DNA from: Chloroflexi bacterium RBG_13_51_36
Lineage (GTDB): Bacteria > Chloroflexota > Dehalococcoidia > GIF9 > AB-539-J10
DNA: 64,000 bases
NCBI GenBank assembly: GCA_001796515.1
Contig: MGMS01000010.1
Location: 82,209-146,208 of the forward strand
Direction of reading: 5' to 3'
The notes under the pieces: generated by a model
Seen by the model: the letters and a program-made list of their open reading frames with translations, nothing else
The model's database searches: none
What the model was told of the DNA's origin: nothing
Made by a program: the position numbers and the translations under genes
In this document: piece by piece, positions 13,224-63,420 of the stretch
Layout of the letters: each line of letters starts with the position of its first letter
Numbering within the stretch: position 1 is the first letter of the stretch

Positions 13224-13268
13224 CATCCGTAGACAATCCTCCCTAAAAATGTAGCGGCCAGCAACTTG

Positions 13269-13315: not shown

Positions 13316-13316
13316 A

Positions 13317-13358
13317 AGTGAGGTTCTCCGGTCGCTTCGCTCACTCAGAGTGACAAGG
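13317..13358 (+). repeat. REP-like repeat of the TGTCATTCTGAG/GAAGC type
   Basis: Read on the minus strand it gives TTGTCACTCTGAGTGAGCGA then AGCGACCGGAG. Similar units occur at 14639 and 49331. It abuts copy G and the end of argG. Confidence 0.5.
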
Positions 13359-13370
13359 GGCGAACGGTGG

Positions 13371-14573
13371 TTATTCGGGTGGTTCGGGTTGCACCCTGGC
13401 CTGGGTCCTCACCGGCAGACCCCAGATATGGATGAAGCCGGGGGAGGCGCTATGGTCGAAGACATCCCCCTTATCGTAGGTAGCGAGACTGTAATCGTAA
13501 AGGGAATAGGGCGACTTTCTGCCCACTACCTGGCAGTTGCCTTTGAAGAGCTTCACCCTTATGGTGCCGGTGACATATCTCTGCGTACTTGCTACATAGG
13601 CGGCTAAGTCCTGACGCACACCTGTAAACCACAGCCCGTTGTAGACGAGGTCGGCATACTCAGTGGCTACCCTGGCCTTGAAGCGGAGTTGCTCTTTGGT
13701 CAGCACCAAATCCTCCAATGCCAGGTGAGCTTTCAGCAGGACCACGGCTGCCGGCGCCTCATAAATCTCCCTGGATTTTATGCCCACCAGCCTATTTTCC
13801 ACGTGGTCGATCCGGCCTATGCCGTGTCTGCCAGCCAGCTCATGAACCTTCTGCACGAGCGCGACAGGCTCTACCTTCCGGCCGTTAAGGGTTACCGGTA
13901 TCCCTCTTTCAAAACCAATGTCCAGATAGGCAGGCCGGGCCGGTGTCTTTTCCAGGGACCTTGTCCACAGGAAGATATCGTCAGGTGGTTCGTTCCAGGT
14001 ATCTTCGAGCACACCACATTCAATGCCACGGCCCCAGAGGTTCTCGTCTATGGAATAGGGACTGGCCCTGGTGACAGGGATAGGGATATTGTGGGCCTGC
14101 GCATATTTGATTGTCTGCTCGCGGGTCATCTTCCATTCCCGGGCCGGGGCTATTACCTTTAGCTCGGGGGCTAAGGCAGCTACACCGACATCGATCCTCA
14201 CCTGGTCGTTGCCCTTGCTCGTGCAGCCGTGAGCGACCATCCTTGCCTTTTCCTTCTTAGCCGTTTCCACCAGAAGTCGGACGATGAGAGGACGTCCCAG
14301 GGCTGTGGATAACGGATACTGCCCTTCGTAAACGGCATCCGCCCGGACGGCTGGGAAAACATACGACTTAATAAAGTTTTCTTTGGCGTCGATGACCAGC
14401 GCTTTTATGGCTCCGACTTTGAGGGCTTTCTGTCTGATGGCCTCCAAGTCAGGGACATTGCCGATATCTACAGTGAGGGTAATGACCTCCAGGTTGTATT
14501 TTTCCTGAAGCCATCTTACAGCCACGGAAGTATCCAGGCCACCGCTATATGCTAGTACTACTTTTCCTGCCAT
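13371..14573 (-). CDS. argG: Argininosuccinate synthase
   Basis: 400 aa, full family length, with AAGGAGG before the ATG. The N-terminal AYSGGLDTS is the PP-loop for ATP. Further conserved stretches are AHGCTSKGNDQVR, PYSIDENLWGR and the C-terminal LYDYSLATYD. It joins citrulline and aspartate in the arginine pathway. It is the last gene of the minus-strand arg cluster, separated from argD by a repeat-filled gap. argC and argH are not in the window. Confidence 0.97.
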   Translation of the reverse strand: MAGKVVLAYSGGLDTSVAVRWLQEKYNLEVITLTVDIGNVPDLEAIRQKALKVGAIKALVIDAKENFIKSYVFPAVRADAVYEGQYPLSTALGRPLIVRLLVETAKKEKARMVAHGCTSKGNDQVRIDVGVAALAPELKVIAPAREWKMTREQTIKYAQAHNIPIPVTRASPYSIDENLWGRGIECGVLEDTWNEPPDDIFLWTRSLEKTPARPAYLDIGFERGIPVTLNGRKVEPVALVQKVHELAGRHGIGRIDHVENRLVGIKSREIYEAPAAVVLLKAHLALEDLVLTKEQLRFKARVATEYADLVYNGLWFTGVRQDLAAYVASTQRYVTGTIRVKLFKGNCQVVGRKSPYSLYDYSLATYDKGDVFDHSASPGFIHIWGLPVRTQARVQPEPPE

Positions 14574-14592
14574 TTCACAGCCTCCTTCGGAG

Positions 14593-14636
14593 AAATCCGA
14601 AATCCTAATATCTAATTCCTAAACAAATTCAAAATA
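14593..14636 (+). repeat. AT-rich repeat AAATCCTAA...AAACAA...TCAAAAT, plus orientation
   Basis: AAATCCTAATATCTAATTCC then TAAACAAATTCAAAAT. The same type of sequence occurs inverted at 14711-14757 and again at 18661-18705, so the argG-argD gap holds an inverted pair. Confidence 0.5.
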
Positions 14637-14638
14637 TG

Positions 14639-14677
14639 TGAGATTGCTTCGTCGCCTTCGACTCCTCGCAATGACAT
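14639..14677 (+). repeat. REP-like repeat (GAGATTGCTTCG ... CGCAATGACA)
   Basis: GAGATTGCTTCGTCGCCTTC then GACTCCTCGCAATGACAT. This is the common GTCATTGCGAGGAGC...GAAGCAATCTC repeat seen in many bacterial genomes. It sits between the two inverted AT-rich repeats. Confidence 0.6.
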
Positions 14678-14710
14678 TGTTCTAGGTCGCCACGTTTTGG
14701 TCATTGGGGT

Positions 14711-14757
14711 TTTAGATTTTGATATTGTTCAGCATGTCGTATTTAGTGTTTAGGATT
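14711..14757 (-). repeat. AT-rich repeat, inverted copy that supplies the argD stop
   Basis: On the minus strand AAATCCTAAACACTAAATAC then GACATGCTGAACAATATCAA. The last codons of argD (QNPKH and the TAA) are read from this repeat. Confidence 0.5.
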
Positions 14758-15945
14758 TTGTATCTCTCCCAGTGCCTCTTTCAAAATGCCTATCGCCTCG
14801 TCCACTTCTTTTTCAGTTATGATTAGTGGCGGCATAAAACGCAAGGCATTGGGCTTCAGTCTATTGACCAGTAGGCCTTTATTCAGGCAAGCCAGTAACA
14901 ATTTGTCGCCTATTTCTTGGTTGAATTCCAAAGCTATCAGGAGCCCCCGACCTCTCACGTCGGTAATAAAATCAAATTGCTGCTTCAGGCTTCCCAGTTT
15001 GGTTAGAAAGTAATTTCCGACTCGTTTGGCCTGTGCCGGTATCTTGTGGTCGATCTGGTACTTCAGGGCGGCATGAGCGGCGGCGCAAACCAGCGGGTTG
15101 CCGCCAAAGGTGGAGCCGTGTTCGCCCAGGGAAAAGACGGAGGCGGCTTCCTTAGCCAGGAAAGCGCCAATGGGCACACCGCTGCCAATTCCTTTAGCCA
15201 GAGCCATTATGTCCGGCTCAACTCCGTACTGCTCATAGGCGAAGAGCGTCCCGGTTCGACCCGCCCCCGTCTGAACTTCGTCCAGAATGAGAAGGATGCC
15301 CTTCTCCCGGCACCAGCTTTGCACCTTCTTGAGATAGTCATTGTCGGGTATGTTCACCCCACCTTCTGCCTGGATTGGCTCCAGCAGTACAGCGCAGGTC
15401 TTCTCGCTGGTAGCTCCCTTGATTGCCTCGACATTGTTATATTCCACGTTGATGAAACCGATGGGCAGAGGTGTGTAAGATTCCTGAAATTTGCTTTGTC
15501 CTGTGGCGGCGGTCATAGCCAGAGTCCGCCCGTGAAAGGAGTTATAGGCAGTAATGACCTCGTAGGCGCCGTTCAGTCGAAGCTTGCCGTACCGACGAGC
15601 CAGTTTAACTGACCCTTCGTTAGCTTCAGCGCCGCTATTGCAGAAGAAAACCCTGTTTAGACAGCTGTACTGGATCAGGAGCTGAGCCAGCTCTAGTTGG
15701 GGCACAGTATAGAACTGGCTGGACGTATGGATCAAAGTCCTAGCTTGCTTTTCCAGGGCCTTTACGACCACCGGAGGGCAGTGCCCCAGGCTATTTGTTG
15801 CCCAGCCAGCGGTAAAGTCGAGGTATTTGCGGCCCTGGTCATCCCAGGCTCGAGCCCCCTTGCCACGAACTAGGGTCACGGGAGCTCTCTTAATCGTCTG
15901 TAGAAATAGCTTCTTCTCTAAATCCTGCCAATCATTCTGAGACAA
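14743..15945 (-). CDS. argD: Acetylornithine aminotransferase
   Basis: 400 aa from a TTG at 15945, chosen because AGGAGGT lies 7 nt upstream. The track's 16020 start would overlap argB by 89 bp. PLP class III features: FCNSGAEANEGSVKLAR, SFHGRT, LILDEVQTGAGRTG, ALAKGIGSGVPIGA (with the PLP Lys) and GEHGSTFGGNPLVCAA. It converts N-acetylglutamate semialdehyde to N-acetylornithine. The start overlaps the argB end by 14 bp. The C-terminal five residues come from a repeat sequence. Confidence 0.93.
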   Translation of the reverse strand: MSQNDWQDLEKKLFLQTIKRAPVTLVRGKGARAWDDQGRKYLDFTAGWATNSLGHCPPVVVKALEKQARTLIHTSSQFYTVPQLELAQLLIQYSCLNRVFFCNSGAEANEGSVKLARRYGKLRLNGAYEVITAYNSFHGRTLAMTAATGQSKFQESYTPLPIGFINVEYNNVEAIKGATSEKTCAVLLEPIQAEGGVNIPDNDYLKKVQSWCREKGILLILDEVQTGAGRTGTLFAYEQYGVEPDIMALAKGIGSGVPIGAFLAKEAASVFSLGEHGSTFGGNPLVCAAAHAALKYQIDHKIPAQAKRVGNYFLTKLGSLKQQFDFITDVRGRGLLIALEFNQEIGDKLLLACLNKGLLVNRLKPNALRFMPPLIITEKEVDEAIGILKEALGEIQNPKH

Positions 15946-16726
15946 TTGTTGTACCTCCTGATTCTGTTTGCCGGGCCTTTGCGGTGATGTCATCACGCAA
16001 GGCGCCGGCGACTTTGCCATTTATGATACGCACGACCTTCGCGGTAGTCAAAGCTCTAAGGCTGGCTTCTATTTTAGGAATCATACCACCGGAAGCCACG
16101 CCGGAGATGACCATATCTTTCGCCTCAGCCAGGTTGAGCCTGGGCACCACCTGCCCCGAGCCATCATGAATACCATCAACATCGGTCAGGAATATCAACT
16201 TCTCTGCAGCTAAGGCTGCAGCGATCTCCCCTGCCGCTGTATCTCCGTTGACATTCAGTAGAGTGACCCTGCCTTCCACCGAGCCGAAACTTATGGGCGC
16301 GACTACTGGCATATAGCCGGCCTTTAGCAGGAGTATCAAGGGACTGGGGTCAACAGCGGTAATCTCGCCGACATAGCCCATCTCGGGGCTCTTGACGCTT
16401 GCCCAGAGCAAGTTCCCGTCACAGCCGCTCAGGCCGACTGCCCTGCCGCCCAGAGCCTGAATAGCTACTACCAGTTCCTTATTCACCAACCCGCCCAGGG
16501 CCGCCGCCACCACCTTCAGGGTCTCGGCATCGGTGACTCTCAAGCCATTCACAAAGCTAGTGGGAATGCCCAGTCGAGCCAGCCACTCCGAACTCACCTT
16601 GGCACCACCGTGAACCGCCACCAAAGATTTGCCCTGCTTCTGAAGCTCCACCAGGTCTTCTAAGGTAGTATCATGGCTGCCTAGAGTGCTGCCCCCAATC
16701 TTGACGACAACGATTCTCTTCTGCAT
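15932..16726 (-). CDS. argB: Acetylglutamate kinase
   Basis: 264 aa. Conserved parts are VVKIGGSTLGS, VAVHGGAKVSSEWL, RVTDAETLKVV, LNVNGDTAAGEIA, LIFLTDVDGIHDG and SGGMIPKIEASLRAL. It phosphorylates N-acetylglutamate. It lacks the N-terminal helix used by arginine-sensitive hexameric forms, so arginine inhibition of this enzyme is less likely. The ATG shares one base with the argJ stop (TAATG). Confidence 0.93.
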   Translation of the reverse strand: MQKRIVVVKIGGSTLGSHDTTLEDLVELQKQGKSLVAVHGGAKVSSEWLARLGIPTSFVNGLRVTDAETLKVVAAALGGLVNKELVVAIQALGGRAVGLSGCDGNLLWASVKSPEMGYVGEITAVDPSPLILLLKAGYMPVVAPISFGSVEGRVTLLNVNGDTAAGEIAAALAAEKLIFLTDVDGIHDGSGQVVPRLNLAEAKDMVISGVASGGMIPKIEASLRALTTAKVVRIINGKVAGALRDDITAKARQTESGGTTIVSE

Positions 16727-17925
16727 TACGTAGTATATGCGCTGTTAATAGTAACATATTTCTCGGAGAGGTCGCAGCCCCAGGCGGTGGCTTGGCCTTC
16801 TCCCAAGTTCAGGCAGACTCTTATGAGTACATCAACGCCCCGACTCAAAGATGACATCATTTCGGCTTTGCTGAAGGTGGTGGGGCAACCCTGCTTCATG
16901 ACACAAACGTCATTCAAGTAGACATCCAGTTTGTGTTCGCTAACCCTGGCTCCGCTTCGCCCTAAGGCGGCGACGATGCGCCCCCAGTTAGGGTCGTTGC
17001 CATGAACAGCTGCTTTCACCAGCGGTGAGCCAGCGACGATCCGAGCTGCCTGACGAGCCCAAACCCAATCCTCCGCCCCTTCTACCGTGACCTCAATGAG
17101 TTTTGTGGCTCCCTCTCCATCCCGAGCTATGGACTTAGCGAGATGAGTGCAAACTGCGTTTAAGGCTTCCTGGAAGGTGCCGCCATTATGGGATTTGATA
17201 GGTTCGTTGCCGGCCTGGCCGTTGGCGAATAGGAGTGCACAATCGCTGGGACTGGTGTCTCCATCAATACTTACCATGTTGAAGGAACAGTCCACGGCCT
17301 CGTGTAATGCGGCCGGCAGGAAATCGGCACCCACTGCGGCGTTGGTGGCGATAAAACAGAGCATGGTAGCCATGTTGGGATGAATCATACCTGCCCCCTT
17401 AGCTACTCCGCCAATGGTGAATTTCTTGCCATCTGAATCTACTTGGACAGCTATTTCTTTGGGTCTGGTATCCGTAGTCATTATTGCCCGACAAAAGTCA
17501 TGGCCGCCTTTTCTGGTGGGCCTAATCTTGGGAATCGAAGCCCTGATTTTGTCCATGGGCAATGGCGCGCCAATGATGCCGGTACTGGCGACAAGGACTT
17601 CCTCAGGGGATATGTCTAGCCGAGCGGCTGTTAGTCTTGCCATTTCCACGGCATCTGCCAGTCCTTGCTCGCCCACGCAGGCATTGGCACAACCGGAATT
17701 CGCCACTACAGCCCGCGCCTGTCCTCTTGCCGCATGCCTCTGGGATAAAACAACTGGAGCTGACTTAATCTGGTTGGTAGTGAAAACGCCGGCAGCCACG
17801 CAGGGAACTTCGGAACACAGGACAGCCAGATCAAGCTCGTCTTTGTTCTTTATCCCGGCGCGAACCGCACCAGCCAGGAATCCTGAAGCTGAGGTAACAC
17901 TGCCTGAAGGAATTAAGTCTAACAT
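16726..17925 (-). CDS. argJ: Bifunctional ornithine acetyltransferase/N-acetylglutamate synthase
   Basis: 399 aa from ATG 17925. Conserved: TTNQIKSAPV, VANSGCANAC, STGIIGAPLPM, KGAGMIHPNMATMLCF with the Ala-Thr autocleavage site, SIDGDTSPSD and HGNDPNWGRI. It recycles the acetyl group from acetylornithine to glutamate. No ribosome-binding site precedes either the ATG or the TTG at 17943. A promoter ends 8 nt before the ATG, so the mRNA is probably leaderless. First gene of the argJBD(G) operon. Confidence 0.94.
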   Translation of the reverse strand: MLDLIPSGSVTSASGFLAGAVRAGIKNKDELDLAVLCSEVPCVAAGVFTTNQIKSAPVVLSQRHAARGQARAVVANSGCANACVGEQGLADAVEMARLTAARLDISPEEVLVASTGIIGAPLPMDKIRASIPKIRPTRKGGHDFCRAIMTTDTRPKEIAVQVDSDGKKFTIGGVAKGAGMIHPNMATMLCFIATNAAVGADFLPAALHEAVDCSFNMVSIDGDTSPSDCALLFANGQAGNEPIKSHNGGTFQEALNAVCTHLAKSIARDGEGATKLIEVTVEGAEDWVWARQAARIVAGSPLVKAAVHGNDPNWGRIVAALGRSGARVSEHKLDVYLNDVCVMKQGCPTTFSKAEMMSSLSRGVDVLIRVCLNLGEGQATAWGCDLSEKYVTINSAYTT

Positions 17926-51130: not shown

Positions 51131-51574
51131 ATGGCTGGCATCAGGCGGAAGGCAAGAATCGCTGCTCTCCAGACTCTCTATGAGCTTGATTGCACGAGGC
51201 ATAAGGCGGAGGAAACCGGAGCTCGTTTGAAAGCTGAGAAGACGCTGACTCAAGAAACACTCGGCTTTGCTGAGGAACTGATGAGAGGAGTGCTGCAGCA
51301 CAAATCTGAGCTCGATGCCGTTATCAAGAAATTTGCCACTGCCTTTCCATTAGAGCAAATGTCTATCGTTGATAGAAATATTCTGCGTCTGGCTATTTTC
51401 GAAATTCTGTTCACTGACAAAACTCCTGTCAAGGTAGCTATAAATGAGGCTATAGAGTTAGCCAAGAGTTTTGGCAGTGAGTCTTCTTCACGGCTAGTAA
51501 ACGGAGTCCTCGGAGTAGTGGCAAGAGAACGCGACGAAAGACGGAAAGATGGCAAAAGAACTGAAGAAAGGTGA
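51131..51574 (+). CDS. nusB: Transcription antitermination factor NusB
   Basis: 147 aa. IRRKARIAALQTLYELDCTR, VDRNILRLAIFEILFTDKTP, KVAINEAIELAKSFGSESSS and FVNGVLG-type end (RLVNGVLGVVARERDERRKD). It binds BoxA RNA with NusE to support rRNA transcription. The end overlaps the following transporter remnant by 26 bp. Confidence 0.94.
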   Translation: MAGIRRKARIAALQTLYELDCTRHKAEETGARLKAEKTLTQETLGFAEELMRGVLQHKSELDAVIKKFATAFPLEQMSIVDRNILRLAIFEILFTDKTPVKVAINEAIELAKSFGSESSSRLVNGVLGVVARERDERRKDGKRTEER

Positions 51575-52974
51575 AATCCCGGGAACACCGAGGCAGTTTG
51601 CTATTTTCGCGACCATTGTTGTGGCAGTTGCCTTCCTGTGTTACCGGGGGCTAGGAGACATCCACCAAGCTATAGCAGCTACCGTTTGTATAGCTTTGGT
51701 TGTGGGGACTTTAATGTTTTGGAGATTCAGAGTGGCCATAGCTTTCATAGGAATCTCGGTTTTGCTTCTGACAGGGACGATGAACTTGGAGCATGCCATA
51801 GAATTCATGAATTTGGATGTTATTGTTTTTCTGATAGGCATGGCAGTGATAGTTGCACTTCTCCGAGACACTGGCTTCTTCCGTTGGCTGGGCATCAAGA
51901 TAATCAAGCTTGCTAGATATTAGCCCAGGAACGTAATGATTTCTCTTCTGGTTCTTTCCGCGGTTATGGCTGCCTGTGTGGACGAAGTAACTTCCATACT
52001 TTTTATGACAGCACTCGTATTTGAGCTTTGCGAACGTTATAAGGTTGACCCCGTAAACTACGTAATATCGGTTGTGCTGGCCACAAATATTGGGAGTTCC
52101 TGGACCGTTCTGGGGAACCCCATTGGAATATTGCTGGCCCTCAGAGCTGGACTGAGCTTTGAAGATTTCATGCGGTGGTCTTTTCCAGTCAGTTTGATTG
52201 GCCTTATTTGCGTCATGGTCATAATTTTGGTGTGGCAACGTGGTGACCTCAAAGCACTCAGGACCAGGATTAATGCCCAGATGGAAAGCGGCATTGCCAA
52301 TTTGGATGAATGGGCTGAAGTAAAAGATAGAGCCTTTTTCAAATGGGGAATTGTCCTGTTTCTGGGGGTGGTGGTTTTTCTGGCTTTGCACTACCGCCTT
52401 GAGCTGCTATTTGGTCTGGAAAGGGACACGCTGCTTGTTGCTATTTCCATCACGGGCGCTGGGATCGCCATGTTCTGGAAAAGAGACAAGGCTGAGGAAT
52501 ATTTGGAGAGAGGTGTCTCGCGGGGGACACTGGTATTCTTCATGTTCTTATTTTCTGTGGCAGGCAGCCTTGCCTATACCGGTGTTACCGGCAAGATTGC
52601 AGGTGTTGCCACGGGGCTAACGGCTAGCCCGGTACTACTTCACTATAATTATAGCCTTGGGGGCTGCCTTCGGCTCAGCGGCGCTGGATAACGTGGTTCT
52701 GGTAGCCGCACTCATCCCCGTAGTTCAGGCTTTGGGAGCGGCTGGGGTTAATAACTTTCCAATGTGGTGGGCATTGCTTCAGGGAGCGTGTTACGGCGGC
52801 AACATCACCATGGTCGGCTCGACAGCCAATATCGTGGCTCTGGGCATGTTGGAAAAGCGCACAGGTTATCATATGACATTCCGTAAGTGGATTCTAGTTG
52901 GCTTAGTTGGTGGTCTCTTGCCCCTGTTTGTTGCCCAAGTACTGTTACTTGTTCAACTGCCTCTTATGCCTTGA
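51549..52974 (+). pseudogene. Broken ArsB/NhaD-type (SLC13-like) ion transporter gene
   Basis: Three ORF pieces make one family member. Piece 1 (51549) ends at an in-frame TAG at 51921-51923, after IIKLARY. Piece 2 resumes in the same frame (NVMISLLVLSAVMAACVDEV). Near 52621-52645 the frame changes by one, and piece 3 continues in another frame (TIIIALGAAFGSAALDNVVL). The joined product has the expected order, including ATNIGSSWTVLGNPIGILLA and GACYGGNITMVGSTANIVAL. Either the gene is decaying or there are sequence errors. TAG serves as an ordinary stop in other genes here. Confidence 0.8.
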
Positions 52975-53273: not shown

Positions 53274-54422
53274 GTGGAAGTGCTAAGTCCTTACAAAGAA
53301 GCTACAGATGTAATACTCGAGGCCGGCGGCGAACCTCTTAAGCTATGTTACCAGTGTGGTCTTTGTACCGGCATTTGTCCCTGGAATTTGGTTCGAAGTT
53401 TTCTCGTTCGTCGCATCATGCACGAAGCTCAGCTTGGGGCGGTTGATTTTGGGGGTGAGGATGTCTGGACTTGTGTCACATGTCGGGCCTGTGTCCAGCG
53501 CTGCCCCCGAGGCGTAGAGATAATAGATGTTATGAGAGCTATACGCCGAGCTGTAGCCAGCATGGGTATCGGCGTTGTCCCTGACGCCCTGAGAATCTCG
53601 GCTAAGAACATCGCTGGCGTAGGTAATCCACTTGGTGAGGTACCAGAGAAGCGAAATGACTGGGCTAAAGACCTTAAGGTGAAACAATTTGCCTCGGGCA
53701 CCGAAATACTTTATTTCCCGTGCTGTATCCCTTCATACGACCCTGATGTGAAAACGGTAGCTCGATCTGTCGCCACGATCTTCAATAAGCTTAAGATTGA
53801 TTATGGCATCATAGGCACTGAAGCAAAATGCTGTGGCGAATCAATTAGAAAGGCCGGGCAGGAAGATACGTTCCAAAGTCTGGCTCAAAACAACATCAAT
53901 CTCTTTACCAGTAGTGGTGTCAAGACTGTGGTAGTTTCTTCACCGCATTGCTACCACACTTTTAAGAATGAATATCCCGAGCTTGGAGGCAAATTCGAAG
54001 TAATTCATATCACTCAGTATCTAGCTTCACTTATCGACGAAGGGAAATTGAAGCTCTCTAAGAAGATAAACAAAAAGGTAGTCTATTCCGACCCCTGCTA
54101 TTTGGGGAGACACAACGATATCTACGATGAGCCTAGGAAGATTCTGCAGAGCATTCCCGGCGTGGAATTGATTGAATTTCCTGATGCTCGCGAGAATGGC
54201 CTCTGTTGTGGAGGTGGGGGCGGCAGAATCTGGATGGATACTCCGAAAGGAGAGAGGTTCTCCGATATAAGGGTAGAACAGGCTGCTGCGAAAGGAGCCG
54301 ATATCGTAGCTATAGCTTGTCCCTACTGCTTCCTCAACTATAGAGACAGTGTACTCTCCATGGGCAAGGCAGAGACTATGCAGGTTAAAGATATCGTTGA
54401 ACTCGTTGCTGAAGCAATATGA
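53274..54422 (+). CDS. HdrD-like (fused HdrC-HdrB) heterodisulfide reductase subunit
   Basis: 382 aa from GTG 53274 (GAGGT 11 nt upstream). Two 4Fe-4S motifs at the N-terminus (CYQCGLCTGICP, CVTCRACVQRCP; about 25-77) are the HdrC part. Two CCG domains follow: CC ... CCGES ... HC, and DPCYLGRHNDIYD ... LCCGGGGG ... CPYC, the latter typical for the noncubane 4Fe-4S clusters of HdrB. In methanogens such a subunit reduces CoM-S-S-CoB. Bacteria use related units for other disulfides or carriers. First gene of the run; hdrA follows 15 nt later. Confidence 0.9.
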   Translation: MEVLSPYKEATDVILEAGGEPLKLCYQCGLCTGICPWNLVRSFLVRRIMHEAQLGAVDFGGEDVWTCVTCRACVQRCPRGVEIIDVMRAIRRAVASMGIGVVPDALRISAKNIAGVGNPLGEVPEKRNDWAKDLKVKQFASGTEILYFPCCIPSYDPDVKTVARSVATIFNKLKIDYGIIGTEAKCCGESIRKAGQEDTFQSLAQNNINLFTSSGVKTVVVSSPHCYHTFKNEYPELGGKFEVIHITQYLASLIDEGKLKLSKKINKKVVYSDPCYLGRHNDIYDEPRKILQSIPGVELIEFPDARENGLCCGGGGGRIWMDTPKGERFSDIRVEQAAAKGADIVAIACPYCFLNYRDSVLSMGKAETMQVKDIVELVAEAI

Positions 54423-54437
54423 TAACGGAGTAATGAG

Positions 54438-56420
54438 ATGGAGGAGATAAGGATTGGCGTTTACATCTGCCACTGCGGAGTGAATATTGCAGCAACAGTC
54501 GACGTGGCCGAGGTAGCAAGATATGCTGGGACATTGCCCGGAGTAGTGCTATCCCGTGATTATGTATTCATGTGTTCCGACCCAGGGCAAGACCTTATTA
54601 GAAAAGACATTAAGGAATATAACCTCAATCGTGTTATAGTCTCTTCTTGCTCCCCGAGGTTGCATGAGCTCACCTTCCGCCGGGTTTGTGAGAGCGCCGG
54701 TTTGAATCGTTATCTATTCGAAATGGTAAATATAAGGGAGCAATGCTCTTGGACCAATGAAGACAAAGAGGCAAATACAGAGAAAGCGAAGGCTTTGGTT
54801 GACGCTGCGGTGAGGCGTGTTCATTACCAGGAGCCATTGGAAATTAAGGATGCCCCCTATAATCCCAATACTCTAATTGTAGGCGGAGGGATTGCCGGAA
54901 TTCAAGCTGCTTTGGAAATTGCCAACTCTGAGCATAAAGTCTATTTGGTAGAAAGGGAGCCCTCAATCGGCGGGCATATGATTCAGCTTGACAAGACCTT
55001 CCCTACTTTGGATTGTTCTCAATGCATTCTCACTCCAAAGATGAGTGAGGTAGGCTCACACCCCTATATTGAACTGTTAACCTATAGTGAGGTGGAGGAG
55101 GTTTCAGGGTACGTGGGGAATTTCAAGGCAAAAATAAGGAAGAAGGCAAGACATGTGGATGTAAGCAAATGTACTGGCTGTGCTGTATGCATGCAAAAAT
55201 GCCCTTATAAGACAGATAGTGAATTTGAGCTAGGCTTAGCCAAGAGAAAAGCTGCTTATATTCCTTTTCCCCAGGCTGTGCCCAACGTTGCCACTGTTGA
55301 CCCCAATATCTGTATTTATATAAAGTCGGAGGGAAAGAAATGCGGAGCTTGTATAAAATCCTGCGAGGCAGGTGCAATAACTGCAGAAACACTTCTTCAT
55401 CAGACCGACGAGATAATCGAGGTTGAGGTAGGTTCAATAATCCTGGCTACTGGTTTCACCACCATGGATCCGAAACTCATTCCCCAATACGGCTACGGTA
55501 AATACGACAATGTCATAACTGGGCTTGAATTTGAGAGGATAGTGAGCCCTACAGGGCCTACGGGAGGGAAAATCCAACTTAAAGATGGCAAAGAGCCAGA
55601 GAGCGTGGCCATAGTCCATTGTGTCGGCAGCCGAGATAAGAATTACCACGAGTATTGCTCCCGTATTTGCTGCATGTATGCCTTGAAACAGGCAAATTAC
55701 ATCAAAGAAGAGCTACCAGATGCGGATGTCTACCAGCTATACATAGACATGCGCTGTTTTGGAGATGGATATGAGGAATTTTATAACCGCCTTTCAAGTG
55801 CAGGAGTCAACTTTGTTCGTGGAAAGGTAGCTCAAGTCACTGATCAGGCTATAAATGATGAGGAAGCCGGAAAACTTATTGTGGTTGCTGAGGATACTCT
55901 TTTAGGACGCATGCTCCGTATTCCGGTAGACATGGTTATTTTGTGTAATGCCGTGGAGCCTCAAGCCGATGCTGGAGAAGTGGCAAAACGTTTTACCATA
56001 AATCGAAAGGCGACGGGTTTCTTCCTGGAGAGGCATCCCAAGCTTGATCCGGTAGCTACACCTACTGAAGGGACTTTTGTCGCTGGTTGTTGCCAGAGTC
56101 CCAAAGACATCCCGGATACAGTAGCCCAGGCTTCAGCAGCGGCAGCAAGGGTTTTGTCACTGATAAGCAAAGGCAGAATTACACTGGAGGCCGCCGTTTC
56201 GGTAATTGACGAGGAGAAGTGTAGCGGCTGCCGGATCTGTAATCTTCTCTGCCCTTATGGTGCTATTTCTTTCATCGAGGATGAAAAGAAATCCCGAATT
56301 AACGAGGCTTTGTGCAAGGGTTGTGGCACCTGCGGTGCTGCTTGCCCTTCAGGAGCTATTACCGCACGTCACTTCACTAACGAGCAAATTCTAGCTCAGG
56401 TGGAAGCCTTAGTCAGCTAG
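54438..56420 (+). CDS. hdrA: HdrA-like electron-bifurcating FAD/Fe-S subunit
   Basis: 660 aa with GGAG before the ATG. N-terminal domain (GVYICHCGVNIAATVDVAEV) with SCSPRLHELTFR, FAD site VGGGIAGIQAALE (about 148-160), HdrA-type Cys cluster at LDCSQCILTPKM, Fe-S motifs CTGCAVCMQKCP (245-256) and CGACIKSC (302-309), and two C-terminal 4Fe-4S motifs (CSGCRICNLLCP, CKGCGTCGAACP). The FAD is the bifurcation site in known Hdr-Mvh complexes. It is in one run with HdrD-like, MvhD, Nfn and hydrogenase genes. Confidence 0.94.
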   Translation: MEEIRIGVYICHCGVNIAATVDVAEVARYAGTLPGVVLSRDYVFMCSDPGQDLIRKDIKEYNLNRVIVSSCSPRLHELTFRRVCESAGLNRYLFEMVNIREQCSWTNEDKEANTEKAKALVDAAVRRVHYQEPLEIKDAPYNPNTLIVGGGIAGIQAALEIANSEHKVYLVEREPSIGGHMIQLDKTFPTLDCSQCILTPKMSEVGSHPYIELLTYSEVEEVSGYVGNFKAKIRKKARHVDVSKCTGCAVCMQKCPYKTDSEFELGLAKRKAAYIPFPQAVPNVATVDPNICIYIKSEGKKCGACIKSCEAGAITAETLLHQTDEIIEVEVGSIILATGFTTMDPKLIPQYGYGKYDNVITGLEFERIVSPTGPTGGKIQLKDGKEPESVAIVHCVGSRDKNYHEYCSRICCMYALKQANYIKEELPDADVYQLYIDMRCFGDGYEEFYNRLSSAGVNFVRGKVAQVTDQAINDEEAGKLIVVAEDTLLGRMLRIPVDMVILCNAVEPQADAGEVAKRFTINRKATGFFLERHPKLDPVATPTEGTFVAGCCQSPKDIPDTVAQASAAAARVLSLISKGRITLEAAVSVIDEEKCSGCRICNLLCPYGAISFIEDEKKSRINEALCKGCGTCGAACPSGAITARHFTNEQILAQVEALVS

Positions 56421-56461
56421 AAGGAACCAGAGCAGTCCAATTCGAATTGAGAGGGAACGAG

Positions 56462-57652
56462 GTGCAAACGAAGAATACATTGGCCATAACTTTGCGCGAT
56501 GAGCTATGTTCCCGATGTTCTATCTGTCGTTCAGCGTGTCCTTTTGAAGCTATTTCCCAAATCGAGGACAAGATCGTTGTGGATATTGAAAAGTGCATGG
56601 TATGTGGTATCTGCAGCAGTGCCTGCCCTTCCGGCGTTATCACACCATACTACTATAGCTACAATGCGTTGGTGGAGAAACTGAAGGCAGAAAAGACCCC
56701 GGATACGGTAGATCTTGTGATAGCCTGCCGTGGCAGCACCGACCCTTGGCTTCAATTACCTGACGCCATGGCTGAGCTGGATTTGAAGAGGGCGATCTTG
56801 TTCAGGGTGCCCTGTGTAGGACGTCTATCTCCAATCTTCTATGTGACTGCGCTCTCTATGGGTATTCAGCGGATCGTTGCCATTCAGTGCAAAGAGAATT
56901 TTTGCCGTTTCACGAAGGGTAGTTTAGTGAACCGCGGTCGTCTCGCCATGCTAGGAAGTTTGGTTAGATCCTTAGGTTACCCAAATGGCACTATTACCAT
57001 TATCGAAGGGGCAAAACAAGTAGAATACGACACGGCGAAGTGCGTTGGCTGCGACAAGTGCGTCCATGCTTGCCCCTACGAGGCGATAGAAGCACAGCCG
57101 TTGGCGACCCCCAAGATAAATTACGAAAAATGTACCGGCTGTGGCGCCTGCGTCGTTGTCTGCCCACATCTGGCACTGGAAATACGCGGGTACGAATGCA
57201 TAAATGTGGCAGAGGTAATCAAAGACTATGGCGAACGGATAAAGGAAACGAAGGGAGGAGCACCGGCGATTCTGGTCCTCTGCTGTCAGTGGGCCGAGTT
57301 CGCCAATCTTGACCGTAACGAGAAAGGCTTGATCAGACCCAATGTAGCCCTCTTGGAAATACCTTGCTTCAGCAAGCTTGACCCAATAAATGTCCTTCAG
57401 GCTTTTGCTTGTGGTTTTGACGCTGTACTTGCTTTTGTATGCTCTGATGATGACTGTAAATCCAAGGAGTCAAGGGTGACGACCGAAGATAATATGAAAG
57501 TCCTTACGACTAGCCTGAAGCTGATGGGGCTGGCGAACAGCTTCAAGATCCATAAGAGTTCACCGAGAACCATAGGGGATTTTGATGCTCAGGTTGATTT
57601 GTTCGTGAGTACAGTCTTGCTCCCGGAAAAGAGGATGGGGACGCAGATATGA
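56462..57652 (+). CDS. Double ferredoxin-MvhD fusion protein
   Basis: 396 aa from GTG 56462 (GAGGG 6 nt upstream); TTG 56447 of the track is less likely. Layout: 2x4Fe-4S ferredoxin (CSRCSICRSACP, CMVCGICSSACP), an MvhD-like domain (VIACRGSTDPWLQL ... VPCVGRLSP ... QCKENFCRFTKGS), a second 2x4Fe-4S ferredoxin (CVGCDKCVHACP, CTGCGACVVVCP) and a second MvhD-like domain (CCQWAEFANLDRN ... IPCFSKLDP ... VCSDDDCKSKES). A tandem repeat of this unit is uncommon. It should pass electrons between HdrA, Nfn and the hydrogenase. It overlaps the next gene by 4 nt. Confidence 0.85.
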   Translation: MQTKNTLAITLRDELCSRCSICRSACPFEAISQIEDKIVVDIEKCMVCGICSSACPSGVITPYYYSYNALVEKLKAEKTPDTVDLVIACRGSTDPWLQLPDAMAELDLKRAILFRVPCVGRLSPIFYVTALSMGIQRIVAIQCKENFCRFTKGSLVNRGRLAMLGSLVRSLGYPNGTITIIEGAKQVEYDTAKCVGCDKCVHACPYEAIEAQPLATPKINYEKCTGCGACVVVCPHLALEIRGYECINVAEVIKDYGERIKETKGGAPAILVLCCQWAEFANLDRNEKGLIRPNVALLEIPCFSKLDPINVLQAFACGFDAVLAFVCSDDDCKSKESRVTTEDNMKVLTTSLKLMGLANSFKIHKSSPRTIGDFDAQVDLFVSTVLLPEKRMGTQI

Positions 57653-58506
57653 ACAGAATACTAGTGAAGAAAGAATTGGCTCCCAAGATAAAGCTTATAG
57701 AGTTTGAGAATCGCGATATTGCCTCGAAAGCAAAGCCCGGACAGTTTGTTGTAATACAAATGGGAGAAAAAGGCGAGAGATTTCCCCTTACTATCAGCGG
57801 AATAGACCCGGGCAAGGGTATGGTGAGAGTCATATTTAATGAAGTAGGTAAGAGCTCCAAGAGGCTGGGGGCTTTGGCTGAAGGGGAAGAGATTGGTAAT
57901 GTAGCAGGCCCGCTGGGAAATCCGGCAGAAATTGAGAAATTTGGCACCGTGCTTTGTTTCGGAGGCGGAGTAATGACTGGCCCTATGGCCTACGAGGCGG
58001 CTGCCTTTAAGAAAGCAGGCAACCGAGTAATCACAGTGATTGGAGCCAGGAATAAGGAGCTTCTCATTCTCAAGGACGAGATGAATGCTCTCAGCGACAA
58101 GCTCTACGTTTCCACGGATGATGGCTCAGAGGGGTACAAGGGGCTGGACTTTCTCCGAGACATCTTGGAGGGGGAGAAAGTCGACCGTGTGATTGGCATG
58201 AGTGTGGCGACTGCCACGTTGAGAACACTATGCGAGCTCACCAGACCCTATGGTGTCAAAACGATAGTGTCACTTACCCCCATCATGCTGGACGGCACCG
58301 GGATGTGTGGGGTCTGTCGGGTTGTTGTGGGTGGGCAGACGAAATTCGCCTGTGTCGATGGGCCGGAATTCGATGGTCATCTGGTGGACTGGGATTTGCT
58401 CGAATCGCGGAAGAGAGTCTATTCCCACGAGGAGAGAGTGTCAACCCTCCTTGATGAGCAGGTCGGAAAGGATTGTGCATCCCGCTTCCAGCAAACAAGA
58501 AAGTAG
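57649..58506 (+). CDS. NfnA-like FAD/NAD-binding, 2Fe-2S subunit
   Basis: 285 aa. Ferredoxin-NADP reductase fold: FAD region FPLTISGIDPGKGMVRVIFN, NAD(P) region GTVLCFGGGVMTGP and VIGMSVATATLRTLCELTRP, and the small 2Fe-2S part GMCGVCRV ... FACVDGPEFDGHLV. It is similar to the sulfide dehydrogenase/NfnA subunit, which works with NfnB in transfer between ferredoxin, NADH and NADPH. The ATG overlaps the upstream stop (ATGA) and NfnB starts 3 nt after its stop. Confidence 0.9.
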   Translation: MNRILVKKELAPKIKLIEFENRDIASKAKPGQFVVIQMGEKGERFPLTISGIDPGKGMVRVIFNEVGKSSKRLGALAEGEEIGNVAGPLGNPAEIEKFGTVLCFGGGVMTGPMAYEAAAFKKAGNRVITVIGARNKELLILKDEMNALSDKLYVSTDDGSEGYKGLDFLRDILEGEKVDRVIGMSVATATLRTLCELTRPYGVKTIVSLTPIMLDGTGMCGVCRVVVGGQTKFACVDGPEFDGHLVDWDLLESRKRVYSHEERVSTLLDEQVGKDCASRFQQTRK

Positions 58507-58508
58507 CT

Positions 58509-59918
58509 ATGCCTGAGAAACTAAAGCTAAATTCCATTCCTATGAACAAGCAACCCCCGGAGGTTCGTAGGAGAAATCCTTACGAGGTAGCCCAGGGATA
58601 TACCTATGAACAGGCAGTTGAGGAGGCAAAACGCTGCATTCAGTGTAAGAAGCCAGCGTGTATCCAGGGCTGCCCGGTCGACATAGACATTCCGAGTTTT
58701 GTCAAAGCTTTGGCGGAAGGAGACTTGCCCCAGGCAGCTAAGATTATCTATGGTACCAATACTCTTCCCGCCATATGTGGGCGGGTTTGTCCCCAGGAAA
58801 CACAATGTCAGGAAAACTGTACGTTGGGGAAAAAGGGCGACCCCGTGTTTATAGGTAGGCTGGAGAGGTTCGTTGCTGACTGGGCAAGAGAAAACCCTGA
58901 GGAATCAGGTATATTCAAAATAGCTCTGCCCAAACCTACAGGCAAAAAGGTGGCGATTATCGGCTCAGGGCCAGCCGGGCTTACTTGTGCCTCTGATTTG
59001 GCTAAGGCTGGGCACAAGGTTGTCATATATGAAGCTTTGCACCTCGCTGGAGGTGTAGCTGTCTACGGAATACCAGAATTCAGGCTGCCGAAGAAGATTG
59101 TCCAAGCCGAAATTGACTACTTGGTTAATGTACTCGGTGTGGAACTTAAGCGCAACCAAGTGGTCGGCAGGTCGGCAACCCTTGATGAGTTACTGGCGGA
59201 CGGCTATCACTCCATATTTCTTGGCATTGGCGCTGGAGCACCGATGTTTCTCAACATACCAGGGGAGAACTCGAATATGGTCTATTCGGCAAACGAGTTT
59301 CTCGTCCGGTTGAACCTCATGAAGGCCTACCTCTTCCCGGCATATGATACGCCGGTGAAGGTTGGGAAAAGGGTGGCGGTTGTTGGTGCAGGTAACGTCG
59401 CTATGGATGCAGCTCGGTGGGCTGTGAGAATGGGCGCTGATGAGGTCTATATTGTTTATCGTCGTACCGAAGCTGAGATGCCGGCTAGGATAGAGGAGGT
59501 AGAGAATGCCCGTGAAGAAGGAGTCATCTTCAAAGTGCTGACTCTTCCTGTGCGGGTAATCCCCAGTGCCCACGGCTCAGTGGAGGCGATAGAGTGCGTT
59601 CAGATGGAGCTTGGTGAACCGGATGAGAGTGGTAGGAGACGTCCGATAGTGAAGCCGGGCAGCGAGTTCTGCATGGAGATTGACACGTTGATCCCGGCAC
59701 TGGGGACGCAGCCTAATCCATTAGTGCCCAGACAAACACCTGACCTGAAGACTACCAGTCGCGGTACAGTTGTTGCCGATGAGAAAGGCAAGACTACCAA
59801 GGAGAAAGTGTGGGCCGGTGGAGACATAGTTACCGGTGCTGCTACGGTCATTAGTGCCATGGGGGCGGGTCGGCGAGCAGCTACAGATATCGATGCTCGC
59901 CTCAAAAATCATAGCTGA
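58509..59918 (+). CDS. NfnB-like/GltA-type NADPH oxidoreductase
   Basis: 469 aa from ATG 58509; the track's 58473 start lies in the upstream gene. N-terminal Fe-S region: CIQCKKPACIQGCPVDIDIP and CGRVCPQETQCQENCTLG. FAD motif VAIIGSGPAGLTCASDLAKA, NADPH motif VAVVGAGNVAMDAARWAVRM and GGDIVTGAATVISAMGAGRR. With the preceding gene it makes up an Nfn-type transhydrogenase pair; alone it would be called glutamate synthase small-subunit type. Confidence 0.92.
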   Translation: MPEKLKLNSIPMNKQPPEVRRRNPYEVAQGYTYEQAVEEAKRCIQCKKPACIQGCPVDIDIPSFVKALAEGDLPQAAKIIYGTNTLPAICGRVCPQETQCQENCTLGKKGDPVFIGRLERFVADWARENPEESGIFKIALPKPTGKKVAIIGSGPAGLTCASDLAKAGHKVVIYEALHLAGGVAVYGIPEFRLPKKIVQAEIDYLVNVLGVELKRNQVVGRSATLDELLADGYHSIFLGIGAGAPMFLNIPGENSNMVYSANEFLVRLNLMKAYLFPAYDTPVKVGKRVAVVGAGNVAMDAARWAVRMGADEVYIVYRRTEAEMPARIEEVENAREEGVIFKVLTLPVRVIPSAHGSVEAIECVQMELGEPDESGRRRPIVKPGSEFCMEIDTLIPALGTQPNPLVPRQTPDLKTTSRGTVVADEKGKTTKEKVWAGGDIVTGAATVISAMGAGRRAATDIDARLKNHS

Positions 59919-59944
59919 CTTGGATATTTGGAGAGTTGGTTTTT

Positions 59945-59991
59945 CTTGCCAGACGTGCTATCATTACAGGCCGTGTCATCGGGCTGGCAAG
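59945..59991 (+). other. Inverted repeat between the nfnB-like and mvhD genes
   Basis: CTTGCCAG and CTGGCAAG, 8 bp, with a 31-nt loop and no T run. It might be an mRNA-processing or stabilising hairpin between the Nfn and hydrogenase halves of the operon. Confidence 0.35.
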
Positions 59992-60083
59992 CAAGCGCGT
60001 ATGAAAACTGTCCTTTTGTTCAATTTGTACTCCACGAAAAAGAGCGAAACAGACCTTTCATGGGTAATTCGTTAGGAGGATAG

Positions 60084-60527
60084 ATGGACAACTTTGAACC
60101 AAAGATAGTAGCCTTTTGCTGTAACTGGTGCTCTTATGCTGGTGCCGACCTGGCTGGCACTTCCAGAATACAGTATTCTCCCAATATAAGAGTAATCAGA
60201 GTGATGTGTAGCGGCAGAGTGAACCCCCTGTTTGTGATTAAGGCGCTCAGCATTGGTGCTGACGGCGTGTTGGTTCTCGGTTGCCATCCCGGCGATTGCC
60301 ACTATATTGAGGGAAATTACAAGACGATGCGCCGTATCCCGCTGCTGAAGAAGATGTTGAAGCAGCTTGGGATAGAAGAGGAAAGGGTCCGGCTGGAGTG
60401 GGTTTCGGCGTCAGAAGGAGCGAAATTTGCTGAGGTGACCGATGGTTTCACGGAATCCGTAAGGAAACTTGGGCCAAGTTCGTTAGGCCATTCGAAACAG
60501 GGTTCTAAGGAGGCAAAGCATGGCTAA
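60084..60527 (+). CDS. mvhD: Hydrogenase delta (MvhD) iron-sulfur subunit
   Basis: 147 aa with TAGGAGG before the ATG. Typical Mvh[61 protein letters not shown]. Its 2Fe-2S cluster passes electrons from MvhAG to HdrA. It overlaps mvhG by 8 bp. Confidence 0.95.
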
Positions 60528-61479
60528 ACTCAAGATAGCGCTTTATTGGGCGGCCAGTTGTGGGGGATGTGAGATTGCGACTCTAGCTATACACGAAAAG
60601 ATACTGAAGCTAGCCGAGGTCGCAGACATCGTTTTCTGGCCGGTAGGCATGGATTTCAAGTATGCTGACGTAGAGAAGATGGCTGATAAAAGTGTGGATG
60701 TCTGCCTTTTCAACGGAGCTATTAGGAATGAAGAAAATGAACACATGGCCAAGCTACTGCGAGCCAAATCTAAGATAATGATAGCCTATGGCTCTTGTGC
60801 TCACGAAGGCTGTATTCCCGGGCTGTCCAATTTCTACAACCGACAACTGACGTTCGATCGGGTCTACATTGAAACGCCGTCGACTGAGAATCCTAGGAAG
60901 ATTTTCCCTCAGACGAAAGTCAAAGTACCTGAGGGCGAGCTCGATATTCCTGAGTTCTATGACACGGTTAAGACTCTAGCCCAGACCGTAGACGTCGATT
61001 ACTTCGTCCCCGGTTGTCCCCCGGAAGAGAGGACTACTTGGCTTGCCCTTGAAGCTTTGATTTCAGGTAAGCTACCGCCGAAAGGGACCGTCATAAGTCA
61101 CGCGGTAAAAGCTGTTTGCGACGAGTGTCCCCGCAAGAAAGAGGAAAAGAAAATCAAGAAATTCTATCGACCTTACGAAAAAATGCCTGAGCCAGAAAGG
61201 TGTCTGCTGGAGCAGGGATTCTTGTGCTACGGTGTGGCTACTCGCGGTGGTTGTGGTGCTCTCTGCCCTCAAGCTAATATGCCATGCACCGGCTGTTACG
61301 GACCGGTGGAAGGGGTAATTGACCAGGGAGCTCATTTTCTGAGTGCTCTTTCGTCTATCATTGACTCCAACGATCCCGAGGAGATTCAAAAAATAATCGA
61401 CGATATTCCTGACCCGGCAGGCACTCTCTACCGTTACAGTCTGCCAGATTCGCTACTTAGGAGGGCACGGATAAAATGA
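60520..61479 (+). CDS. mvhG: [NiFe] hydrogenase small subunit (MvhG type)
   Basis: 319 aa. Proximal-cluster Cys in [14 protein letters not shown], then [11 protein letters not shown] and VPGCPPEE. The C-terminal Cys-rich part ([20 protein letters not shown], then [15 protein letters not shown]) binds the other clusters. No twin-arginine signal, so it is cytoplasmic, as expected for group 3c. Overlaps mvhD and mvhA. Confidence 0.95.
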
Positions 61480-62942
61480 AAAAAATAATGATAGACCCCA
61501 TTACCCGCCTTGAAGGTCATGGCAAGATTACCATCTTCCTCAAGGACGATGGCAGTGTGGCCAACGTTTATTTCCAGGTTCCCGAACTCAGAGGCTTCGA
61601 GAAATTCTGCGAGGGACGGCCGGCTGAGGACATGCCCCAGATAACACAGCGTATTTGTGGCGTTTGTCCTGAAGCCCACCATATGGCAGCAACGAAAGCC
61701 CTGGATGACCTGTTTCATGTCGAACCAACCAGCACTGCCAAAAAGCTGCGTGAGCTCCTTTACAGCGCTTTTTACGTAACTGACCATACCACCCACTTCT
61801 ACATCCTTGGCGCCCCTGATTTCGTTATGGGGCCGGATGCACATCCTGCAGAACGCAATATCCTGGGAGTAATAGGCAAGGTAGGACTGGAGCTAGGTGG
61901 TGCTGTGATCAATACCCGCAAACAGAATCACTGGATTATCCAGACAGTCGGCGGCCGTCCGATACACCCCTGTTTCGGACTACCCGGCGGCGTGAGCAGA
62001 GCCATAAATGAAGAAGAAAGAGCAAAAATAGAAGAAATAGCCAAGCAGTCAGTGGAGTTCGGCAAGGTATCGCTTAAAGTCTTCGACGACGTCGTTCTCA
62101 AGAACAAAGTGTACCTGGACATGGTCCTGAGCGATACCTATACCCAGAAGTCGTATAACATGGGATTGGTTGATAAGAACAATAAGGTCAATTTCTACGA
62201 TGGCAAAGTACGAGTGGTCGGACCTGATGGCAAAGAGTTATGTAAATATGCTCCCCGCGAATATCTGGAACATATAGCTGAACGAGTTGAGCCATGGACA
62301 TACCTCAAGTTTCCCTATCTCAAGAAGGTTGGCTGGAAAGGTTTCGTTGATGGCAAAGACAGTGGAGTGTATCGAGCCACACCCCTGTCCCGCCTGAATG
62401 CTGCCGATGGTATGGCTACCCCTCTGGCCCAGGAAGCATACGAGAAGATGTACTCCACTCTTGGGGGCAAGCCGGCCAACTATACTCTGGCAACCCACTG
62501 GGCACGCCTCGTTGAACTTCTTTACGCTGCTGAGAGGTTGCTGGAGCTCAGTAAAGACCCGGAAATAACCAGTCCGAACATTCGCAACATACCGACAGCG
62601 AAGCCCGACGAAGGAATAGCCATTGTGGAAGCACCTAGGGGCACCCTCACCCATCATTACATAACCGATGAAAGAGGGGTGATAAAGAAGTGTAACTTGA
62701 TCGTGGGCACTACCAATAACTATGCTCCTTTGTTTATGTCAATTAAGAAAGCAGCCGAAGACTTTATAAAGCCTGGAGTAGAGATAACTGAGGGACTGCT
62801 TAACCGCATCGAGATGGCGTGGCGTCCCTATGATCCCTGCTTGTCCTGCGCTACACATGCTTTGCCCGGGCAGTTACCTCTGGAAGTGACTATATATGAT
62901 GCCCAGGGCAACGAGGTCAAGAAACTGAGCCAGGGCGTTTAG
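61476..62942 (+). CDS. mvhA: [NiFe] hydrogenase large subunit (MvhA type)
   Basis: 488 aa. The two Ni-binding motifs are RICGVCPEAHH (about 59-69) and DPCLSCATH at 453-461. Behind the His is a 27-residue tail (ALPGQLPLEV ...) that would be cut off by the maturation protease encoded next. Start ITRLEGHGKITIFL and ETPRGTLTHHY-like motif (EAPRGTLTHHYITDE) agree with group 3 hydrogenases. It oxidises or makes H2 in the cytoplasm. Confidence 0.96.
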   Translation: MKKIMIDPITRLEGHGKITIFLKDDGSVANVYFQVPELRGFEKFCEGRPAEDMPQITQRICGVCPEAHHMAATKALDDLFHVEPTSTAKKLRELLYSAFYVTDHTTHFYILGAPDFVMGPDAHPAERNILGVIGKVGLELGGAVINTRKQNHWIIQTVGGRPIHPCFGLPGGVSRAINEEERAKIEEIAKQSVEFGKVSLKVFDDVVLKNKVYLDMVLSDTYTQKSYNMGLVDKNNKVNFYDGKVRVVGPDGKELCKYAPREYLEHIAERVEPWTYLKFPYLKKVGWKGFVDGKDSGVYRATPLSRLNAADGMATPLAQEAYEKMYSTLGGKPANYTLATHWARLVELLYAAERLLELSKDPEITSPNIRNIPTAKPDEGIAIVEAPRGTLTHHYITDERGVIKKCNLIVGTTNNYAPLFMSIKKAAEDFIKPGVEITEGLLNRIEMAWRPYDPCLSCATHALPGQLPLEVTIYDAQGNEVKKLSQGV

Positions 62943-62964
62943 TGACAGGTTGTCGTAAGTCCGA

Positions 62965-63420
62965 ATGAAGACCCTGGTTCTAGGGCTGGGGAATAGCATA
63001 CTCTCCGACGATGGTGTAGGGATCAGGGCGGCTCATGAAGTGGCCAACCAACTCAGCAATCCCCAGGTGACTGTAGTTGAAACAAGTGCGGCTGGCCTTA
63101 GCCTGTTAGATTCTATTGTCGGCTACGATAAAGTCATTATCATTGATGCCATCCAGACTGAGAAGGGGGAAGCTGGGCAGATATATCGTATGGGGACTGC
63201 AGATTTCTCCTGCACCAAGCACTTCTCTTCACCTCATCAAATAAACCTGGTCACAGCTCTGGAGTTGGGCAAGATGCTCAATTTGGCAATGCCTCAAGAG
63301 ATCGTTGTTTTCGCTGTGGAAGCAGAAGATATCACCAGCTTCAGCGAGAAATGCACGCTCGAGGTAGAGAAGGCAATTCCCATAGTGGTCAAGATGGTGC
63401 TGGAGGAGTTAGTCAGCTAG
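62965..63420 (+). CDS. Hydrogenase maturation protease
   Basis: 151 aa. HyaD/HycI family: LVLGLGNSILSDDGVGIRAA, IIIDAIQTEKGEAG and FSSPHQINLV, which give the Glu/Asp, Asp and His nickel-sensing positions. It removes the C-terminal peptide of MvhA after Ni insertion. Starts 22 nt after mvhA. Its 3' end overlaps that of moaC by 12 bp on the other strand. Confidence 0.93.
   Translation: MKTLVLGLGNSILSDDGVGIRAAHEVANQLSNPQVTVVETSAAGLSLLDSIVGYDKVIIIDAIQTEKGEAGQIYRMGTADFSCTKHFSSPHQINLVTALELGKMLNLAMPQEIVVFAVEAEDITSFSEKCTLEVEKAIPIVVKMVLEELVS

Follow-up and report, generated by a model that had tools for sequence, protein, structure and literature searches.

Electron bifurcation is normally pictured as the work of separate enzymes that exchange free ferredoxin. 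In known Nfn transhydrogenases the bifurcating FAD is carried by NfnB; these enzymes are not known to have a third Fe-S subunit and draw on free ferredoxin. MvhD is described, from solved complexes, as a [2Fe-2S] connector that joins a hydrogenase or a formate dehydrogenase to HdrA (PMC12350162). An arm composed of a ferredoxin and an MvhD domain also forms the C-terminal part of HdrA2 (type Ia HdrA), as in HdrA2B2C2 of Methanosarcina acetivorans (PMC5296606, PMC12054007), and an MvhD-type connector is reported beside MetV/MetF in the MetVF-HdrABC-MvhD systems of Moorella, Sporomusa and marine Chloroflexi (PMC9430772, PMC5736913). In Sporomusa ovata, a pull-down with tagged MvhD recovered MetF together with HdrA and HdrB (PMC9430772). 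Physical coupling of Hdr to Nfn has been proposed for ANME-1, where GltD/NfnB is inserted into HdrA (type III HdrA; PMC9012536, PMC12054007), and the StnABC transhydrogenase is likewise described as having a GltD/NfnB-like subunit coupled to a different electron-transfer module (PMC10482914).

The window (the 64,000-nucleotide stretch of DNA that was analysed, from a Dehalococcoidia MAG) contains a gene, at 56462-57652 on the + strand, whose 396-residue product carries the ferredoxin-plus-MvhD arm of HdrA2, in the same order, but twice. Only Fer4 and FlpD domains were found in this tandem protein by Pfam, and it therefore differs from HdrA2 in having neither the FAD-binding thioredoxin-reductase core nor the HdrA N-terminal domain. 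With the MvhD of methanogens (HdrABC-MvhAGD, FdhAB-MvhD-HdrABC) it shares FlpD membership, the four invariant cysteines and its best fold matches, but it has two MvhD domains, each with a ferredoxin, it does not lie beside MvhG here, and homologues usually have no HdrA alongside. One branch of its family mirrors the MetVF-HdrABC-MvhD arrangement, except that the tandem protein replaces the single MvhD and HdrABC is not directly beside the locus. The window operon also encodes NfnA and NfnB that are homologous to NfnAB over their full length, to which it adds a third, conserved Fe-S gene; this would be a separate Fe-S wire, unlike the insertion in ANME-1 HdrA, and is built from MvhD rather than from the NuoE/NuoF-like subunits of StnABC. 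The parts are already known, namely the HdrA2 arm, the single MvhD beside MetVF, Nfn and the ANME-1 HdrA-NfnB fusions. In the open-access literature searched (paywalled papers and figures lay outside the search), no account was found of the doubled protein, of its family with two partner types or of the tandem-NfnA-NfnB cassette.

The tandem gene is a single uninterrupted frame with a GTG start at 56462; a TTG start at 56447 is possible, and the GTG is the likelier of the two because AGAGGG lies 6 nt upstream of it. The sequence-only reading had described alternating ferredoxin and MvhD-like units, and this architecture was borne out by Pfam, which placed two FlpD domains (PF02662) and four Fer4 sites in the order ferredoxin, MvhD, ferredoxin, MvhD. 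When the pieces were scored separately, residues 79-184 gave 40.3 bits and residues 263-385 gave 63.0 bits against the curated FlpD cut-off of 22.3 bits, and both domains can therefore be placed in the MvhD family. The first ferredoxin domain (56483-56647, + strand) contains eight invariant cysteines (C16, C19, C22, C26, C45, C48, C51 and C55) and is followed by the first MvhD domain (56708-57007, + strand; C89, C118, C143 and C148). The second ferredoxin domain (57017-57190, + strand) likewise has eight invariant cysteines (C194, C197, C200, C204, C224, C227, C230 and C234), and the second MvhD domain (57263-57616, + strand) has the invariant C275, C302, C327 and C332, preceded by a variable C274. 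Chance or an annotation artefact was rejected as the source of this architecture, which recurs in more than 80 genomes as a cross-domain family.

All 24 of these invariant cysteines (16 in the ferredoxin domains and four in each MvhD domain) are present in 65 of 65 full-length homologues. Those of the MvhD domains align with the four invariant cysteines of MvhD itself; in a joint alignment of N-terminal domains, C-terminal domains and stand-alone MvhD proteins, columns 35, 68, 96 and 101 are cysteine throughout. It had been pointed out from the sequence that the first MvhD domain lacks the CCxW motif and the second keeps it as CCQW, which is literally true (the first has ACRG at this position), but the specialisation that this implied is not supported. 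The first cysteine of the motif is absent from every first domain; it occurs in 23 of the 65 second domains and, among stand-alone MvhD proteins, in 82%, and so CCxW varies within the MvhD family and is no defining marker of it. Neither domain looks degenerate, since the complete set of family cysteines is kept in both, and the idea of a degenerate first domain was rejected on these grounds. The missing CCxW does not imply the loss of a [2Fe-2S] site, and the protein as a whole is predicted to hold four [4Fe-4S] and two [2Fe-2S] clusters.

An AlphaFold2 single-chain model of the tandem protein, built from 18 homologues, was of moderate confidence (pLDDT 69.9, pTM 0.49). The top four Foldseek matches to it in the PDB all came from Hdr complexes and were the MvhD chains of these (5odc_D, 5odh_D, 8rvu_F and 7bkb_F), with one of the two domains aligned. 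The best NCBIfam match was to the C-terminal ferredoxin-MvhD region of HdrA2 (NF040770; residues 188-360 on profile positions 573-742). In a tree of the modules, which is unrooted as to whether the N-terminal or the C-terminal half is the older type, the N modules form one clade and the C modules another (100/99 each), with the arms of HdrA and HdrA2 in a third group. Because each half forms a single, fully supported clade and both show largely identical branching of their hosts, the arm was doubled once, at an early date that preceded the split between the two branches of the family described below.

The tandem gene lies within an operon that runs on the + strand from 53274 to 63420 in the order HdrCB-HdrA-tandem-NfnA-NfnB-MvhD-MvhG-MvhA-HycI. 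The fused HdrC-HdrB (53274-54422) has a Fer4 dicluster and two CCG domains, and is followed by a full-length HdrA of the methanogen type (54438-56420), which has no fused MvhD and scores 732 bits over its full length to 5odc_A. In the ferredoxin domain inserted in this HdrA, the second motif is CX9C rather than CX2C (CIYIKSEGKKCGACIKSC). The 3' end of the tandem gene overlaps the start of NfnA (57649-58506; 276 bits to 5jca_S) by 4 bp. NfnA, a FAD/[2Fe-2S], NAD-binding protein, and the GltD-like NfnB (58509-59918; 567 bits to 4ylf_B) align over their full length with solved Nfn, and the [2Fe-2S] motif DGTGMCGxCR...C is present. There is a gap of 165 bp before the next gene, in which no terminator-like site was found on the + strand. 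Domain matches identify the remaining genes as an ordinary single MvhD (60084-60527), the hydrogenase small subunit MvhG (60520-61479), the [NiFe] hydrogenase large subunit MvhA (61476-62942) and a hydrogenase maturation protease of the HycI/HyaD type (62965-63420). A full HdrABC-MvhAGD set is thus encoded together, with HdrC and HdrB fused, and the operon contains no MetV/MetF. Elsewhere in the genome there are CODH/ACS (CdhC) and three MTHFR-family genes, which are consistent with a Wood-Ljungdahl pathway. At 51549-52974 (+ strand) a CitMHS citrate/anion-transporter gene is broken at two points, with a stop in frame near 51921 and a change of frame near 52660, and so falls into three frames; it is either a pseudogene or the product of assembly errors.

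The most informative comparison is that of the window operon with two operons from the same genus. One (L206) has the order HdrCB-HdrA-NfnA-NfnB-MvhD-MvhG-MvhA-HycI and no tandem gene; the other (L215) has HdrCB-HdrA-single MvhD-NfnA-NfnB-MvhD-MvhG-MvhA, and its single MvhD (141 aa) occupies exactly the position of the tandem gene in the window. The flanking proteins of the window are 86-92% (HdrCB), 87-92% (MvhG) and 73-88% (MvhD) identical to their counterparts in these operons, and the values are lower for NfnA (52%) and NfnB (64-66%). In the NfnA tree, the window protein joins the NfnAs that accompany tandem genes in other Dehalococcoidia and in Cloacimonadota (98/91) and is separate from the 29 ordinary Dehalococcoidia NfnAs, and its NfnB pairs with that of another tandem carrier, L032 (100/97), apart from the NfnB of its own genus. 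These gene orders and trees are most simply explained by an exchange in which a tandem-NfnA-NfnB cassette took the place of native genes in an existing Hdr-Nfn-Mvh operon, since the same-genus operons hold nothing or a single MvhD at this place and the NfnA and NfnB of the window are of tandem-associated lineage. The exchange has no sharp edge and may extend beyond the three genes, because HdrA itself shares only 71-72% identity with the HdrA proteins of its genus. GC content gives the cassette no foreign mark (0.49-0.52, compared with 0.51 for the window).

A scan of the genome collection recovered some 20 loci that show the complete architecture, and whole-genome searches (E <= 1e-30) found the tandem protein in 84 of 257 Bathyarchaeia genomes, in 15 of 393 Dehalococcoidia genomes and in one of 125 genomes sampled from the phylum of the Cloacimonadota carrier. 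Its distribution is patchy in bacteria and it is common in Bathyarchaeia, which suggests that the gene may have been transferred from archaea to bacteria. It constitutes a coherent family with two types of partner, NfnA (with or without NfnB) and MetV/MetF. The idea that Deltaproteobacteria are genuine hosts of the MetV branch was rejected: the locus that bears this label (L045) sits in a genome of the window's own class, and a search of that class recovers records labelled Dehalococcoidia. The Deltaproteobacteria label of L045 and of similar public records looks wrong. Just after MvhG-MvhA, L045 encodes a fusion protein (6533-8749) in which a response-regulator domain is joined to a GltD/NfnB-like reductase and to a ferredoxin; L086 and L094 have comparable GltD-like ORFs, roughly 600 aa long.

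Among 40 mapped Bathyarchaeia loci, NfnA directly follows the tandem gene on the same strand in 32, of which 31 also have NfnB; seven others have MetF and/or MetV instead, and one is truncated where its contig ends. NfnA also directly follows in all bacterial loci of the Nfn type, which occur in Dehalococcoidia and in the Cloacimonadota record (L032-L035 and L037). The MetV type prevails among the Dehalococcoidia carriers, typically with the order MvhG-MvhA-HycI-(MvhD)-tandem-MetV followed by hypF, hypD, hypE and hypB, and with no HdrA. Strict co-inheritance of NfnB with the tandem gene was considered and holds only in part: NfnB is of the family-native lineage in L034 and L037, and for this reason NfnA is the tighter partner of the two. 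L037 is also the only locus with Stn-like genes beside an Nfn-type tandem gene; in a single cluster there (4687-17293), the tandem gene and its NfnA are found together with StnABC-like NuoE/NuoF/NuoG-NfnB genes, a formate dehydrogenase and one more NfnA-NfnB pair.

The tandem protein is probably a dedicated Fe-S relay for a flavoprotein, which is the best reading because the chain has two MvhD-type arms and is kept beside a flavoprotein. It would be a flavin-free relay subunit derived from one ancient doubling of the C-terminal arm of an HdrA2-type protein, its steady partner being the FAD/NAD(H) flavoprotein NfnA (together with NfnB) in the window's branch and MetV/MetF in the other. The original suggestion was that one MvhD domain binds HdrA and the other a different flavoprotein such as Nfn. 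The Nfn part is well supported, both by the NfnA that follows in 32 of 40 Bathyarchaeia loci and by the separate, tandem-linked NfnA lineage. The HdrA part is supported only locally: a link to HdrA is plausible in the window operon, where HdrA is directly upstream and the single MvhD of L215 has the same position, but as a general rule the proposal fails, because HdrA is rarely adjacent and the second branch adjoins MetV/MetF. Apart from the window, L031 is the one locus in which HdrA lies directly upstream on the same strand; since nearly all carrier genomes checked encode HdrA somewhere, a link to it in trans is conceivable in the others. The broader proposition that the tandem protein ties Nfn to the Hdr-Mvh machinery has a little better than an even chance of being correct, and the assignment of individual MvhD domains to partners commands less confidence than that.

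The window operon, in which the tandem protein lies between HdrA and NfnAB in the place of a sister species' single MvhD, suggests how such a relay might operate. Electrons from H2, entering through MvhA, MvhG and MvhD, would be split at the HdrA flavin, one branch leaving by way of HdrCB for a disulfide-like acceptor or some other one. The second would pass from the Fe-S clusters of HdrA into the chain of up to six clusters in the tandem protein and on to NfnAB and NAD(P)H, or in reverse, and free ferredoxin would not be needed. The natural path in this operon would thus be HdrA (or MvhG) to the tandem protein to NfnA/NfnB, with cluster types, physical complex, direction of flow and domain-partner contacts all inferred. 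A bolder version can be put forward tentatively, as possible but doubtful: that HdrA-HdrCB-MvhAGD and NfnAB, with their two bifurcating flavins, are joined by the six-cluster protein into a hard-wired supercomplex that passes low-potential electrons directly from H2/HdrA through Nfn to NADPH, or the reverse, with no diffusible ferredoxin, and that the tandem gene belongs more generally to an exchangeable cassette, shared across domains of life, by which MvhD-type electron arms are fitted to unrelated flavoenzymes (Nfn, MetF).

The ordinary MvhD of the same operon could serve HdrA, which counts against the link between HdrA and the tandem protein. The tandem protein might instead wire the [NiFe] hydrogenase MvhAG, through MvhG, directly to NfnA or MetV/MetF and bypass HdrA, so that the operon would comprise an H2:NAD(P) enzyme and a separate, ordinary HdrABC-MvhAGD. 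Two loci (L040 and L156) have the order MvhG-MvhA-tandem-NfnA with neither HdrA nor a downstream NfnB, a layout that suggests such a hydrogenase-to-NfnA wire, and the gene order of the Dehalococcoidia MetV branch, which lacks HdrA, points the same way. However, MvhAG is not nearby in most Nfn-type Bathyarchaeia loci, and in both the window and L215 the MvhD-type protein is placed between HdrA and NfnA while a separate MvhD precedes MvhG; this alternative is credible but unlikely.

It is far less probable that both MvhD domains dock on an HdrA dimer, one per protomer, with the Nfn genes as mere neighbours. HdrA is described as dimeric in solved complexes, with MvhD bound to it (PMC12350162), it is directly upstream in the window and L031, and it is available in trans in 23 of the 24 carrier genomes checked (a count by which the notion of carriers without HdrA was rejected). 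Nevertheless, HdrA docking as a requirement of the family is contradicted by the loci in which NfnA(B) or MetV/MetF alone is adjacent. The pairing with NfnA is conserved and phylogenetically distinct across two domains of life, MetV/MetF replaces NfnA in the sister branch, and the HdrA genes near archaeal loci are mostly divergent or separate, those examined often having an MvhD-like domain of their own. Equally improbable is that the protein acts as a soluble electron buffer of the polyferredoxin kind and has no fixed partner. The many Fe-S sites and the absence of a catalytic domain would suit such a role, but the strict gene pairing, the 24 invariant cysteines and the conservation of two module types do not, and MvhD is described as a connector, not a free carrier, in solved complexes (PMC12350162). 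If the relay reading is true, it would name a partner for NfnAB in Bathyarchaeia and some Dehalococcoidia, and a conserved wire of the MvhD type next to Nfn or to methylene-folate reductase would mean direct channelling of electrons between enzymes. The carriers belong to uncultured lineages that are abundant and whose way of life may be acetogenesis or fermentation. The tandem gene, NfnA and NfnB form a compact, testable three-gene unit, for which sister species with and without the tandem gene provide a natural comparison.

In Bathyarchaeia, a thioredoxin-reductase-like FAD/NAD(P) protein is encoded on the strand of the tandem gene in 28 of the 40 mapped loci, often (L126-L155) about 100-260 bp before it, and may be a further partner. 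A divergently transcribed HdrA2-like gene (~790 aa, with an MvhD-like C-terminal domain) lies upstream of the tandem cassette in eleven Bathyarchaeia loci (L128-L130, L133-L136, L138, L148, L149 and L158); the four cluster cysteines are missing from 11 of 14 compared MvhD-like domains fused to HdrA2-like proteins. Directly before the tandem gene of L031 (880-6946) are an HdrA fragment fused to NuoE, a NuoF, a NuoG-like/Pyr_redox chimera and another HdrA, which together would constitute an NADH-linked Hdr assembly. In L014, a 312-aa protein (644-1582, - strand) consists of an HdrC-like dicluster part followed by a ferredoxin and an MvhD domain; its gene adjoins one for a glycolate/lactate-oxidase-like FAD protein, and it appears to be another ferredoxin-MvhD arm coupled to a flavoenzyme.
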